From Acidimicrobiaceae bacterium (GTDB taxonomy: Bacteria > Actinomycetota > Acidimicrobiia > Acidimicrobiales > RAAP-2), in the NCBI GenBank assembly GCA_003164275.1, contig PLSY01000218.1, forward strand, positions 4,160 to 25,868: 21,709 nt of DNA. Direction: 5' to 3'. This document shows, in pieces, positions 7,927-14,005 of this stretch (positions are counted from its first letter, which is position 1; every line of letters starts with the position of its first letter). Under the pieces are notes generated by a model. It worked only from the letters and a program-made list of their open reading frames with translations, was not told where the DNA came from and did no database searches. A program made the position numbers and the translations under genes.

Positions 7927-9465
7927 TCAAGCAATACCGTGCTCGAAAAGGTGCTTCTCCACAGTCGAGGCGATGTGGTCGAGATGGGCTTCAGTCATCC
8001 CCGGGTAGACGCCGAACCAGAACGCGTCGTTCATAAGCCGGTCCGTGTTCGGAAGTTCTCCGATCTGGCGGAACCCAGTTCCCGACTCACGCATCTCGTC
8101 GAAGCACGGTTGGCGCACCAAATTCCCAGCGAACAGCATCCGGGTCTGGATGCGGGCTCCTTCGAGTGCCGAGACCAGACTGTCCCGGGTCACCGTCGAT
8201 CCGGGTTTCACGACTACGAGGAATCCAAACCAGCTGGGCAGTGCGTGCTCGGTAGGTTCGGGTAGTCGAAGTACGTCGGAAAACCGCGCCAGCCTCTTGT
8301 GGAAATAGTTGAAATTCCTTCGTCGGTCAGCGACGAAGGAGGGGAGCTTCGCCAGTTGAGCGACTCCCACAGCGGCCTGCATGTCCGTCATTTTGAGGTT
8401 GTAGCCGAAGTGGGAGTAGGTGTACTTGTGGTCGTAACCTTCAGGGAGCGTCCCGAGCGACCAACCGAACCGCTTGCCGCATGTATTGGAACGACCGGGC
8501 TGGCAGTAGCAATCGCGACCCCAGTCTCGAATCGATTCGGCGATAGTTCCCAGCTCCTCATCGCTGGTGTAGACGGCGCCTCCTTCGCCCGTAGTCATCT
8601 GGTGGGCAGGGTAGAAGCTGCTCGTTGACAAATGTCCGAAGGTACCCGTCCTTCGTGTCTCGGCCTCTGGCCCGCGCCGCGTGGTGTACTCCGAGCCCAT
8701 TGCATCGCAGTTGTCCTCGACGAGCCACAGGTCGTTTGCCTCGCAAAAGTCCAGTACAGCATCGATATCGAACGGATTCCCCAGGGTGTGGGCGACCATC
8801 ACGGCTTTGGTCCGGGAACTGAGCGCCTGAGACAGCATCGTTGCGTCGATGTTGTCTGTTGTCGGATCGACATCCACGAACACCGGCACTACTCCGTGCT
8901 GAATCGCCGGTGCGACCGTGGTCGGAAAGCCTGCGGCAACCGTGATGACCTCGTCGCCAGGTCGGATCCTCCGATCCCCGAGGCGGGGAGACGTGAGGGT
9001 CGAGAAGGCCAAGAGGTTGGCCGATGACCCAGAGTTGACCAAGCGGCACTCCGAGACACCCACGAACTCAGCCAGACCCTTCTCCAATTCACGGCAGAAA
9101 CGCCCACTCGTAAGCCAGAAGTCCAGGCTGGCGTCGACCAATGACACGACTTCGGACTCATCGAAGACGCGCCCAGCGTAGGGAGTTGGTGTTTTTCCTG
9201 GAACGTACGCCTGTGGAGCCCAGCGAAGCCGGGCATAAGATGCGACCTTGTCGAGGATCTCTGCCCTCAGCGCAGCGACGGATGGCTCAGCATCGCCCTT
9301 GGACTCAGGGCCATCGTCGATGTCGGATTGAGCAGCACTATCGGCGGGTGGCGCGGTCGCCGCTGACTCGTTGGATGCCTGAGCAGGAGATTCGGTTCCT
9401 GAAGCGGGCGGCTCCGTTCCCACTCGACCGTCGGTTTCGATTCGTGTATCCCTGTTCCCGAGCAT
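7927..9465 (-). CDS. rfbH: CDP-6-deoxy-D-xylo-4-hexulose-3-dehydrase (E1)
   Basis: Removes the C3 hydroxyl of CDP-4-keto-6-deoxyglucose using PMP and a [2Fe-2S] cluster, the entry to 3,6-dideoxy sugars. The fold is DegT/StrS aminotransferase-like, but SFYPAHQMTTGEGG puts His288 where transaminases have the PLP-binding Lys, the E1 signature. The cluster ligands are kept as Cys253, Cys319-x-Cys321-x7-Cys329 (RDCYCQPGRSNTCG). Spacing between the first two is eight residues longer than in Yersinia E1 because of an insert near 262-273. GYDHKYTYSHFGYNLKMTDMQ and LFAGNLVRQP are also diagnostic. A 60-70-residue Ala/Glu/Ser/Pro-rich acidic N-terminal tail precedes the core; relatives start near the LRAEI helix. 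No ATG/GTG start lies between codon 15 and the core, so the tail appears translated. The partner reductase E3 is not in the window. Confidence 0.96.
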   Translation of the reverse strand: MLGNRDTRIETDGRVGTEPPASGTESPAQASNESAATAPPADSAAQSDIDDGPESKGDAEPSVAALRAEILDKVASYARLRWAPQAYVPGKTPTPYAGRVFDESEVVSLVDASLDFWLTSGRFCRELEKGLAEFVGVSECRLVNSGSSANLLAFSTLTSPRLGDRRIRPGDEVITVAAGFPTTVAPAIQHGVVPVFVDVDPTTDNIDATMLSQALSSRTKAVMVAHTLGNPFDIDAVLDFCEANDLWLVEDNCDAMGSEYTTRRGPEAETRRTGTFGHLSTSSFYPAHQMTTGEGGAVYTSDEELGTIAESIRDWGRDCYCQPGRSNTCGKRFGWSLGTLPEGYDHKYTYSHFGYNLKMTDMQAAVGVAQLAKLPSFVADRRRNFNYFHKRLARFSDVLRLPEPTEHALPSWFGFLVVVKPGSTVTRDSLVSALEGARIQTRMLFAGNLVRQPCFDEMRESGTGFRQIGELPNTDRLMNDAFWFGVYPGMTEAHLDHIASTVEKHLFEHGIA

Positions 9466-9513
9466 TGTTGGACTACCTTAGGACCTGCGACGACCTGAAA
9501 GGAAAGACCGCCC
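9466..9513. promoter_or_regulatory. 48-bp divergent promoter region
   Basis: This is the only space between the divergent rfbH (start 9465) and aldolase-like (start 9514) genes. Overlapping -10-like hexamers face each other: TACCTT on plus (9474-9479) and TAAGGT on minus (9475-9480). The plus gene has a good ribosome site, AAAGGAAAG at 9498-9506, seven bases before its ATG. The minus transcript would be nearly leaderless. The -35 elements would fall inside coding sequence and are not convincing. Confidence 0.4.
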
Positions 9514-10323
9514 ATGAATCATTTGGAACGGCAGATGCTGGACATCCTGAGGCGGGGCAAGGACGAGTTCGGCTATACGGCGGTGAAGGCTGAGTTTGAA
9601 GCGGAGGGCACACGGACCGACGAGCTATTGCGTCTTATGGAAATAGCCCGTAAGGCAGATCTGGGTCTTGGGTTGAAGATCGGCGGGTGCGAAGCCATGC
9701 GCGACCTCATGGAGGCGAAGCAGATCGGCGTCGAATATGTGATTGCTCCGATGATCGAGACGCCATACGCACTTTCCAAGTTCATCGACGCAAAGAACAT
9801 CGTGTTCACCGAAGACGAGCAACAGGACACGGGGTTCCTCTTCAACCTTGAGACCGAGACGGCGTTCGGACACCTTCCCGAGCTAGTCGCCATGGCTAGT
9901 GCACCGAACGGTGCCGATGGGGTCGTGTTCGGTCGGGTGGATTTCACCCTGTCGACGGGTCGGGACCGGGACGAGATCAATAGCGACGCCATTACGGACT
10001 ACTGCCTGCAGACTGCCAAGACGCTCGCTGAGTCGGGCCAGGACTATGTCGTAGGCGGTGGCGTCTCGATGGATGCCCTGAACGCACTTCGCCAGGTCCG
10101 GGGGATCTATCTCTCCCGGTTCGAAACCCGAAAGGTGATCTTCGACGCACGGTCGCTCGAGGAGAACGATCTTGAGAAGGGCCTAATCGAGGCCGTGCAC
10201 TTCGAGCTCCTCTGGCTGATCAACAAGCGTGAGTACTACAGCTCGATCGAAAGGGAGGATGCCAAGCGCATCGAAATGCTCGAGAAGCGCTGGCACGTTC
10301 TCTCGGCCGAAGATCGGGCCTGA
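9514..10323 (+). CDS. HpcH/HpaI aldolase / citrate lyase beta-like protein
   Basis: The 269-residue predicted TIM-barrel protein belongs to the pyruvate/phosphoenolpyruvate-utilising aldolase superfamily. Visible motifs are KIGGCEAM, VIAPMIETPYAL, FNLETETAF with Glu113 and VVFGRVDFTLSTG with Asp143; the last two sit where HpaI and citrate-lyase beta proteins bind the divalent metal that coordinates pyruvate enolate. Known members cleave or form a C-C bond to pyruvate, oxaloacetate or acetyl groups. In this cluster it is first in a run with the ThDP enzyme 16 bp downstream, so it may supply or process the ketoacid-derived carbon unit added to a ketosugar; that is inference. The start has a clear AAAGGAAAG site. 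The C-terminal helix region (about 225-269) is charged. The substrate cannot be named from sequence. Confidence 0.85.
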   Translation: MNHLERQMLDILRRGKDEFGYTAVKAEFEAEGTRTDELLRLMEIARKADLGLGLKIGGCEAMRDLMEAKQIGVEYVIAPMIETPYALSKFIDAKNIVFTEDEQQDTGFLFNLETETAFGHLPELVAMASAPNGADGVVFGRVDFTLSTGRDRDEINSDAITDYCLQTAKTLAESGQDYVVGGGVSMDALNALRQVRGIYLSRFETRKVIFDARSLEENDLEKGLIEAVHFELLWLINKREYYSSIEREDAKRIEMLEKRWHVLSAEDRA

Positions 10324-12852: not shown

Positions 12853-12856
12853 TCGC

Positions 12857-14005
12857 ATGCCGACCTTCCGTATCCAAGAGACTGAGTTCGAGGCTGTACT
12901 CAACCCGGAAGGCGGAGAACGGATGGCGGTACGGTCAACGCCCCGTCCATATCAGGTCGAGTTCGCCTCTTCGCAACCGCTGGGCGCGACGATCGACGAG
13001 ATGGTCAAAGCGGCTGCCCATCCTGTCGTCCTGGCCGACCGGACCGTCTACGAGGCTCATCTGGCGGATAGCCCGGCGATAGCTGCCGCGCCTTCGATGT
13101 TGGCGGAAGCGACTGAAGAGTTCAAGAGCGTCGATGGGGCCTTTTCGGTAGTCGAGTTTATGGATGCACAGAGGACGAGCCGCAGCTCGCTCTTGGTGGT
13201 GATCGGGGGAGGCATCATCCAGGACGTGGGGGCCTTTGCTGCGTGCGTCTACAAGCGCGGAGTTCCCTGGGCCTTCGTACCCACGACGATGTTGGCCCAG
13301 GCAGATAGCTGCATTGGAGCGAAAAGCGGACTTAATTTCAAGGGCGCCAAGAACTTGGTCGGTGTGTTCTCGGCCCCGCGGCATATCGTGATCCATACTG
13401 GATTTCTGGGCTCGTTGCCCGCCGACGATCTGCTCTCTGGACTGGGGGAGGTATTTCGGTTGAGCATTATCGGCGGCCCGACCTTTCTCGATCAGTTCGA
13501 GGACCTCTTGCCGGATGCCATTGGTGGCGATCACCTGGTGTTGGATCGGTTGATTAGCATGGCCCTCTCGGTGAAGCGATCAGTCGTAGAGGTGGACGAG
13601 TATGAACTCGACCTCCGCCGGTCGATGAACTTCGGACATAGCATCGGCCACGCGCTTGAAGCCCTGACCGGACATGCCATTCCCCATGGAACCGCTGTGG
13701 CTGTCGGCGTGCTCGTGGAAGCCGACATCAGCAACCAGCGAGGGATGCTCTCCGACGACGACCTGCGGCGCCTCATCGAGACTGGCCGGCCGCTCATCTC
13801 AGCTGGTGTGCGTCATTTGTTGGATCAGGTGGATCTCGAGCAGATACTCGATGTGCTTTTTCGCGACAAGAAGGTCGAGGGTGGCACACTGAAGCTGGTC
13901 GTACCTGAGCTCATCGGACAGATCAGATTTATCGACTTTCCGCTAGAACCTGCATCAGTGCCACTTCTTGAAGCGGCTCTGCATCGAGTTCTGGCCGACG
14001 TGTGA
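12857..14005 (+). CDS. 3-dehydroquinate synthase-like cyclase (sugar phosphate cyclase family)
   Basis: The 382-residue protein has NAD-binding GGGIIQDVGAF (117-127), VPTTMLAQADSCIGAKSG with Lys156, GAKNLVG with Lys165, and predicted metal ligands Glu198 (GLGEVF), His261 (NFGHSIGHALE) and His277 (PHGTAVAVG). DHQ synthase converts DAHP to a carbocycle; relatives make 2-deoxy-scyllo-inosose or 2-epi-5-epi-valiolone. The usual VIKYG segment after the metal Glu reads VFRLS here, replacing a substrate-contacting Lys, and Glu in HGEAV is Thr. This argues against housekeeping AroB and for a different polyol-ketose substrate. It starts 4 bp after the SDR. ATG 12923 (MAVRSTPRPYQVEF) has a better ribosome site (AAGGCGGAG) and is a real alternative. 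An ATG at 12731 lies within the SDR and is unlikely. The stop overlaps the next GTG (GTGA). Confidence 0.87.
   Translation: MPTFRIQETEFEAVLNPEGGERMAVRSTPRPYQVEFASSQPLGATIDEMVKAAAHPVVLADRTVYEAHLADSPAIAAAPSMLAEATEEFKSVDGAFSVVEFMDAQRTSRSSLLVVIGGGIIQDVGAFAACVYKRGVPWAFVPTTMLAQADSCIGAKSGLNFKGAKNLVGVFSAPRHIVIHTGFLGSLPADDLLSGLGEVFRLSIIGGPTFLDQFEDLLPDAIGGDHLVLDRLISMALSVKRSVVEVDEYELDLRRSMNFGHSIGHALEALTGHAIPHGTAVAVGVLVEADISNQRGMLSDDDLRRLIETGRPLISAGVRHLLDQVDLEQILDVLFRDKKVEGGTLKLVVPELIGQIRFIDFPLEPASVPLLEAALHRVLADV

Follow-up and report, generated by a model that had tools for sequence, protein, structure and literature searches.

A conserved gene cluster proposed to make a caryophyllose-type branched dideoxy sugar, with a candidate non-cyclising relative of 3-dehydroquinate synthase

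Introduction

What is a relative of 3-dehydroquinate (DHQ) synthase doing in a surface-sugar locus? The question is raised by a stretch of 21,709 bp from an Acidimicrobiaceae bacterium (contig PLSY01000218.1 of assembly GCA_003164275.1, positions 4,160 to 25,868; the whole stretch is called the window below), in which rfbF, rfbG and rfbH, genes of CDP-3,6-dideoxy sugar synthesis, are found together with genes for an aldolase-like protein, a thiamine diphosphate (ThDP) enzyme, a short-chain dehydrogenase/reductase (SDR) and a DHQ-synthase-like (DHQ-like) protein. We propose, with a probability of about two in three, that the genes of the window make a nucleotide-activated C4-branched 3,6-dideoxyhexose of the caryophyllose type, in a pathway in which the DHQ-like enzyme acts without closing a ring. 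The pathway is real and widely conserved, and its closest known case is the caryophyllose of Mycobacterium marinum. The structures of caryophyllose and related sugars are known, and in the accessible part of the literature only the ThDP step has been given a biochemical role; the roles proposed here for the aldolase, DHQ-like and SDR proteins are new, as are the gene exchanges with HAD phosphatase and NeuB genes that support them.

Gene content of the locus

An earlier sequence-only reading had listed rfbH, aldolase-like, ThDP, SDR, DHQ-like, rfbF and rfbG genes. Open frames and family scans confirmed this inventory and its layout, and every frame, spacing and strand described earlier was recovered in the window. 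The genes of the proposed pathway are:

2 to 898, minus strand: rfbG, CDP-glucose 4,6-dehydratase, 5' part, with the 3' end lost at the window edge (TIGR02622, 405.5 bits, cut-off 278.45)
1901 to 3064, minus strand: family 2 glycosyltransferase (GT2), kin of the M. marinum caryophyllose transferase (taken from gene order as MMAR_2333/WcaA; 61% identity over 308 residues)
7927 to 9465, minus strand: rfbH (E1), CDP-4-keto-6-deoxyglucose 3-dehydrase (NF011936, 685.5 bits, cut-off 423)
9514 to 10323, plus strand: HpcH/HpaI-superfamily aldolase-like protein, proposed 3-deoxy-2-ulosonate (phosphate) synthase (homologous to the gene at the MMAR_2331 position; HpaI-like barrel)
10340 to 12169, plus strand: YerE-like ThDP carboligase (JanthE 8rph, 391.3 bits)
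12166 to 12852, plus strand: classical SDR, proposed ketone reductase acting after the DHQ-like enzyme (PF13561, 151.3 bits)
12857 to 14005, plus strand: DHQ-synthase-family protein, proposed non-cyclising sugar-phosphate phospholyase for deoxygenation of the branch (own clade, below curated cut-offs)
18293 to 19300, plus strand: NAD-dependent epimerase/dehydratase-family protein, proposed side-chain ketone reductase with a probable YerF-like role (PF01370, 50.2 bits)
19304 to 20074, minus strand: rfbF, glucose-1-phosphate cytidylyltransferase (TIGR02623, 433.6 bits, cut-off 300.25)

The divergent rfbH and aldolase-like genes have their starts 48 bp apart. Along the plus-strand run, 16 bp separate the aldolase-like and ThDP genes, the ThDP and SDR genes overlap by 4 bp, 4 bp lie between the SDR and DHQ-like genes, and the DHQ-like gene overlaps the next by 4 bp (with ATG starts adopted at 10340 for ThDP and at 12857 for DHQ-like); this close spacing fits a single transcription unit. 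RfbF, RfbH and the RfbG fragment all pass the curated cut-offs, and in RfbH the residue at the position of the aminotransferase lysine that binds pyridoxal phosphate, His288, as well as Cys319, Cys321 and Cys329, are each identical in 52 of 52 relatives. We take this histidine and the three cysteines, presumably iron-sulphur ligands, to be the signature of the 3-dehydrases.

The nearest solved structure to the ThDP protein is that of the YerE-like enzyme JanthE (8rph, so named in PMC12188165), and the next, the best acetolactate synthase chain, scores only 246.5 bits. The protein falls under the cut-off of all 25 families listed (of 54), with TIGR00118 acetolactate synthase the best at 340 against 538.35. 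Glu48 and the GDG motif are present in 69 of 70 relatives, the remaining one having a gap. By sequence, the ThDP protein thus stands nearer to a YerE-like enzyme of known function than it does to the acetolactate synthases, and the extension of CDP-4-keto-3,6-dideoxyglucose by a YerE-like enzyme, as first suggested by the sequence-only reading, is well supported. Among the 80 loci described below, the ThDP proteins fall mostly in two groups, with about 52–75% and 31–39% identity to that of the window, and one genome (G007, locus L053, contigs C178 and C61) has two YerE-like proteins, 66% and 51% identical to it.

Conservation of the cluster across genomes

A profile of the aldolase-like protein found 527 confirmed relatives in public genomes, and the best 80 of the 527 were taken for the analysis of loci. 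Many of these 80 loci end at contig ends, and 51 of them, the full-flank set, have at least 7 kb on both sides; gene presence was called by BLAST score thresholds. The genes rfbF, rfbG and rfbH were found in 51, 46 and 52 of the 80 loci (41, 37 and 43 of the 51 full-flank ones), the ThDP gene in 69 (48), the DHQ-like gene in 56 (36) and the adjoining SDR gene in 55 (36). At least one of the three rfb genes is present in 49 of the 51 full-flank loci, and a relative of the epimerase-family gene in 29. The SDR gene adjoins the DHQ-like gene in 55 of the 56 loci that carry the latter, and in 36/36 with full flanks. The shared gene content of the full-flank loci means that the arrangement is not due to chance, so the co-conserved cluster that had been predicted is now borne out by genome co-occurrence.

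According to record titles, the 80 loci span Actinomycetota, several classes of Proteobacteria, Acidobacteriota, Eremiobacterota and Cyanobacteria. One cluster-bearing record (L076) is titled Bifidobacterium breve and has a lake-type isolate name, so its organism label is doubtful. Two layers emerge from the comparison: a core of rfbF, rfbG, rfbH, aldolase and ThDP genes, and an optional pair of SDR and DHQ-like genes. Both layers, together with the epimerase gene, are present in Methylomonas sp. LW13 (L023). The locus closest to that of the window (L001, in a metagenome-assembled genome of the Acidimicrobiaceae; 79% identity for the aldolase, 80% for RfbH and 90% for RfbF) has the core genes without the pair, and a HAD phosphatase gene instead. 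The origin of this syntenic locus also agrees with the earlier guess of a Gram-positive type.

The DHQ-like gene goes with the aldolase at the level of genomes as well. Among 396 genomes of the genus of M. ahvazicum, the aldolase was detected in 10 (E 1e-40) and the DHQ-like gene in 8 (E 1e-80), all of them within the 10; a smaller draw from the genus, since replaced, had given the aldolase in 6 of 248. Among 398 genomes from the family of Pararobbsia silviterrae there were 4 with the aldolase (E 1e-60) and 5 with the DHQ-like gene (E 1e-70), with 4 in common.

The M. marinum operon and the caryophyllose branch

A DHQ-like protein named as M. marinum (P0140) is 100% identical to one encoded in genome G245, in which rfbF, GT2, ThDP, aldolase, SDR and DHQ-like genes lie on one strand, with rfbH-rfbG divergent. 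From the gene order, we take these as MMAR_2329 to MMAR_2336 of M. marinum. In the literature, MMAR_2332 is the YerE-like ThDP enzyme of caryophyllose synthesis (PMC12247030) and MMAR_2333 a glycosyltransferase named WcaA (PMC4403928), and with this numbering the aldolase would be MMAR_2331. The MMAR_2331 mutant is reported to lose lipooligosaccharides (LOS) LOS-II to LOS-IV; like the mutants of MMAR_2332 and MMAR_2333, it builds up the precursor of LOS-II, which is said to be without the terminal caryophyllose (PMC5706390). Homologues of all eight gene types of the operon (rfbF, rfbG, rfbH, GT2, ThDP, aldolase, SDR and DHQ-like) are present in the window, with 61% identity for GT2 (308 residues), 58% for the aldolase and only 34% for the ThDP protein. 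The gene order differs, and in the window two GT87 genes follow the DHQ-like gene.

Caryophyllose is given as 3,6-dideoxy-4-C-(D-altro-1,3,4,5-tetrahydroxyhexyl)-D-xylo-hexopyranose, a C12 sugar with an open C6 branch at C4 that ends in CH3. Branched sugars are also known from M. gastri, Trinickia caryophylli and Rhodopseudomonas palustris. Digitoxose is 2,6-dideoxy-D-ribo-hexose. In a chemical synthesis of caryophyllose, the acid for the side chain was made from an intermediate that has the digitoxose (D-ribo) configuration (PMC7821131). Read backwards, the branch is 3,7-dideoxy-D-ribo-heptulosonate minus CO2, which is the donor that a YerE-type ligation would need. The yersiniose (YerE) and erwiniose (ErwE) pathways are similar to that proposed for the window in the YerE-like ligation of a 2-oxo acid onto CDP-4-keto-3,6-dideoxyglucose; YerE uses pyruvate and ErwE prefers 4-hydroxy-2-oxo acids. 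Since YerE uses pyruvate, the yersiniose pathway should need no donor-building enzymes, unlike that of the window. Pyruvate as the sole donor was considered here and set aside, as it would leave the aldolase without explanation.

Exchanges with HAD phosphatase and NeuB genes

If the intermediate shared by these pathways is phosphorylated, a phosphatase is expected at loci without the SDR/DHQ-like pair. A HAD gene was found no more than 7 kb away from the aldolase gene in 12 of the 15 full-flank loci that lack the DHQ-like gene and in 2 of the 36 that have it (15/24 against 2/56 across all 80 loci). Fisher's test gives p = 2.2e-7 when kinship is ignored, and at least 8 switches are needed on the aldolase tree. 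In median counts from a kinship-independent pair test, HAD and DHQ-like genes changed in opposite ways in 4 pairs and showed no difference in 2; a change of both in the same way was never seen. Of the eight HAD proteins from which the detector was built, seven came from loci that lack the DHQ-like gene (six aldolase loci and one NeuB locus) and one from a locus that has it, a make-up that could bias the detector towards the former kind of locus; a first detector with four queries had given 12/15 against 1/36. All eight HAD proteins checked, including six from the 12 loci, pass Pfam HAD_2. Azonexus fungiphilus (L041) is one carrier of the HAD variant. There was no HAD match in the window, nor in a 20-kb stretch of M. 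marinum.

The aldolase itself appears to be exchangeable. NeuB enzymes make 3-deoxy-2-ulosonates from phosphoenolpyruvate. The fifth DHQ-like genome from the Pararobbsia family draw, G710, has no aldolase match, and its cluster runs rfbF-rfbG-rfbH-SDR-DHQ-ThDP, then a NeuB-family gene (PF03102, 133.1 bits) and the epimerase gene. Among 61 genomes of its genus there are 5 NeuB matches at E 1e-60, the fifth only 38% identical. The four clusters (that of G710 and three with NeuB proteins 84–88% identical to it) each have rfbF, rfbG, ThDP and epimerase genes; no aldolase was matched in the stretches examined or, for G710, in the whole genome. Two of the four have the SDR/DHQ-like pair and no HAD gene, the other two a HAD gene and no DHQ-like gene. 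In another genome, G801, the DHQ-like gene lies on a short contig on which neither an aldolase nor a NeuB gene is visible.

Features of the aldolase-like and DHQ-like proteins

The aldolase-like protein has no NCBIfam match at E 0.001 and stays just below the gathering score of Pfam HpcH_HpaI (PF03328; 22.1 against 25). Its predicted fold (pLDDT 90.3) matches both HpaI/HpcH and pyruvate-kinase barrels, and since pyruvate kinases tie with HpaI in the fold search, the fold alone leaves the reaction undecided. Glu113 and Asp143 are at least 97% conserved in 81 sequences; alignment A1 keeps one apparently frame-shifted row, P0103. We take these two residues to be the metal-site Glu and Asp of the HpaI/HpcH class II enzymes, while from motif reading Lys55 presumably stands where HpaI has Arg70. 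The protein is thus similar to class II pyruvate aldolases in predicted fold and metal site, and differs from them in its weak sequence match and in Lys55.

The DHQ-like protein shares its sequence family and catalytic residues with AroB and with the AroB-related phospholyases of TIGR04425, but scores below the cut-offs of both (253 against 305 for AroB TIGR01357; 291.3 against 400 for TIGR04425), and its proposed reaction halts before ring closure. Five of its relatives score 226.5 to 248.3 against the same AroB cut-off. For residue analysis we used 68 DHQ-like rows (56 from the loci and 12 from protein searches, with a few proteins present twice) and 16 outgroup rows that we labelled AroB, each being the second or only match in its genome or, in one case, a third match. 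In the tree, the DHQ-like rows make up a single clade that is separate from the AroB set (Shimodaira-Hasegawa-like support 0.895), and within it the protein of the window falls in a group of 12 rows that includes M. marinum (0.76). The 13 active-site positions compared take their numbering and roles from DHQ synthase. All 13 are kept in the 68 DHQ-like rows, which fits an acid phosphate substrate similar to 3-deoxy-D-arabino-heptulosonate 7-phosphate (DAHP). They are also kept in 15 of the 16 AroB-set rows; the exception (L100; G245, contig C1, about 632977–633810) is a third DHQ-synthase-family paralogue in the probable M. marinum genome, with several of these residues lost. Over 56 rows, that of the window among them, the distances of SDR and DHQ-like proteins correlate with r = 0.88. 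This is the strongest correlation in the 15 gene pairs compared; in the remaining pairs r lies between 0.21 and 0.79.

Proposed pathway

From the gene content, families and conserved residues, together with the co-occurrence, the exchanges and the operon match, we infer the substrates, the exact order of steps, the open ring and the exact product in the organism of the window. RfbF, RfbG and RfbH would provide CDP-4-keto-3,6-dideoxyglucose. The aldolase-like enzyme would condense pyruvate with an aldose phosphate, of which D-erythrose 4-phosphate is the likeliest, and so form 3-deoxy-2-heptulosonate 7-phosphate of D-ribo configuration. This product is epimeric to DAHP at C4, and the presence of a dedicated aldolase would thereby be accounted for; the aldose acceptor may vary among organisms. 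Elimination of phosphate is the first half of the DHQ synthase reaction, and without ring closure it would convert CH2-O-phosphate into CH3. The DHQ-like enzyme would use this NAD chemistry and leave the ring open. The ketone that remains needs a reductase, in agreement with the SDR gene that adjoins nearly every DHQ-like gene, and the SDR would reduce it to 3,7-dideoxy-D-ribo-heptulosonate. The YerE-like enzyme would then decarboxylate this 2-oxo acid and attach the resulting acyl unit at C4 of the CDP-keto sugar, the epimerase-family reductase would reduce the new side-chain ketone, and the GT2 enzyme would transfer the finished sugar. The participation of the aldolase-like protein, which had been suggested as a possibility, is supported, as a probable builder of the donor.

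We lean, if only slightly, towards a broader proposal, that a widespread branch of the DHQ-synthase family acts as a deoxygenase, which would take the phosphate off a 3-deoxy-2-ulosonate phosphate and pass the ketone to the SDR with no ring formed. This module would be swappable with a HAD phosphatase and so set a CH3 or a CH2OH end of the branch, while the ulosonate would come from either an HpaI-like aldolase or a NeuB-type synthase. The exchanges would then give a full side-chain route with the aldolase, SDR and DHQ-like genes assigned. If true, DHQ-synthase chemistry is cut short to yield a deoxy sugar acid, many genes automatically named 3-dehydroquinate synthase carry the wrong name, and the end of the branch should be predictable from gene content in Actinomycetota, Acidobacteriota, Proteobacteria and others.

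Several observations weigh against this pathway. The DHQ-like active-site residues, with 13 of 13 positions kept in 68 of 68 relatives, are those of a true DHQ synthase, so that the open ring has to be inferred, and the protein of the window itself is identical at 12 of the 13, with Arg in place of a Lys that is invariant in 68/68 DHQ-like and 16/16 AroB-set rows. The enolpyranose intermediate tends to cyclise by itself, and the enzyme would have to prevent closure. The distances correlate in every gene pair (r 0.21 to 0.88), a pattern that common ancestry by itself would produce. The kinship-independent pair test of the HAD exchange is not significant (n = 6 pairs, starred branches, median p 0.125); two loci (L033 and L055) have both DHQ-like and HAD genes, two (L014 and L018) have neither near the aldolase, and at L071 the DHQ-like gene is absent within 10 kb and present about 18 kb away. 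One of the HAD-type NeuB clusters (L125) has an SDR-family match 2.2 kb beyond its epimerase gene. On the M. marinum side, the identity of G245 is presumed from the protein match given above, the accessible M. marinum LOS literature mentions no mutant of the SDR or DHQ-like gene, and the sugar is there called similar to caryophyllose, with a difference at the C3 hydroxyl (PMC9912281).

Alternative explanations

On the sequence-only reading, extension by the ThDP enzyme is followed by ring closure to a carbocycle by the DHQ-like enzyme and by reduction by the SDR, and the outcome is a bicyclic sugar similar in type to caryose or bradyrhizose. The full DHQ-synthase residue set of the relatives is what such an enzyme would show, and a bicyclic bacterial sugar, bradyrhizose, is described in the accessible literature. 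We also count for it caryose, which we take to be a 4,8-cyclo-3,9-dideoxynonose that can be drawn as a C4-branched 3,6-dideoxyhexose closed onto C5. However, M. marinum with the same set of genes has an open branch ending in CH3, the LOS sugars that the accessible M. marinum literature names include no carbocycle, and the HAD exchange indicates a phosphate on a shared intermediate rather than ring closure. The bradyrhizose genes, called unknown in one paper (PMC4743980), have been assigned to an 11-gene cluster. Furthermore, a YerE-type reaction needs a free 2-oxo acid, which closure at C2 would consume. This part of the earlier proposal therefore did not hold up well and appears distinctly improbable to us; the construction of a 2-oxo acid donor by the aldolase, DHQ-like and SDR enzymes is the better reading.

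The same three enzymes could also act in another order or on other substrates and still lead to a branched CDP sugar: the DHQ-like enzyme might take the DAHP of the shikimate pathway, with the aldolase exchanging or shortening the aldehyde end, or NADH might deliver its hydride to the terminal carbon, in the manner of sugar 4,6-dehydratases. The DHQ-like residues do fit DAHP itself, and the aldolase and ThDP genes occur without the DHQ-like and SDR genes in 15 of the 51 full-flank loci, which implies that the aldolase has a role of its own. The D-ribo caryophyllose chain differs at C4 from DAHP, which is D-arabino, and NeuB in aldolase-less clusters argues for 3-deoxyulosonate synthesis rather than chain shortening; we regard these variants as unlikely. 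Ordinary ilvB and aroB genes that came by chance into a surface-sugar locus are scarcely credible, even though relatives of the DHQ-like protein carry the source name 3-dehydroquinate synthase and acetolactate synthase is the best named family of the ThDP protein. Both proteins stay below the curated cut-offs, the DHQ-like clade is separate and the clustering is conserved. A second DHQ-synthase-family match, taken as AroB, is present in 7 of the 8 genomes of the Mycobacterium genus draw that have the DHQ-like gene (a single match in G107) and also in G005, G007, G008 and G009, and 4 of 5 genomes have an extra, more distant ThDP match (G006 has one only). The earlier view that these are no simple IlvB and AroB enzymes thus gains support. 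No protein named as Trinickia caryophylli was found among 120 listed relatives, most of whose rows are nameless, and no paper linking caryophyllose with dehydroquinate appeared in ranked literature listings, which cover few subscription papers.

Neighbouring genes

Inside the sugar cluster there is one more gene of interest:

3337 to 4260, minus strand: protein whose C-terminal part is a Rieske domain (PF00355, 30.6 bits) and whose N-terminal part has no family assignment

It may supply electrons to RfbH, or it may be an oxygenase. A methyltransferase gene is also near the cluster, and the decoration of the product in the organism of the window may differ from that of caryophyllose. The best NCBIfam names for the GT2 protein are PgfS and undecaprenyl-phosphate Ara4FN transferase, both under the cut-off. 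A DMT/NIPA-like membrane protein is encoded beside it (914 to 3064, minus strand, for the two genes) and GT87 genes are found elsewhere in the window, which together suggests that the sugar is transferred in polyprenyl-phosphate-linked form, flipped and then added on the extracytoplasmic side.

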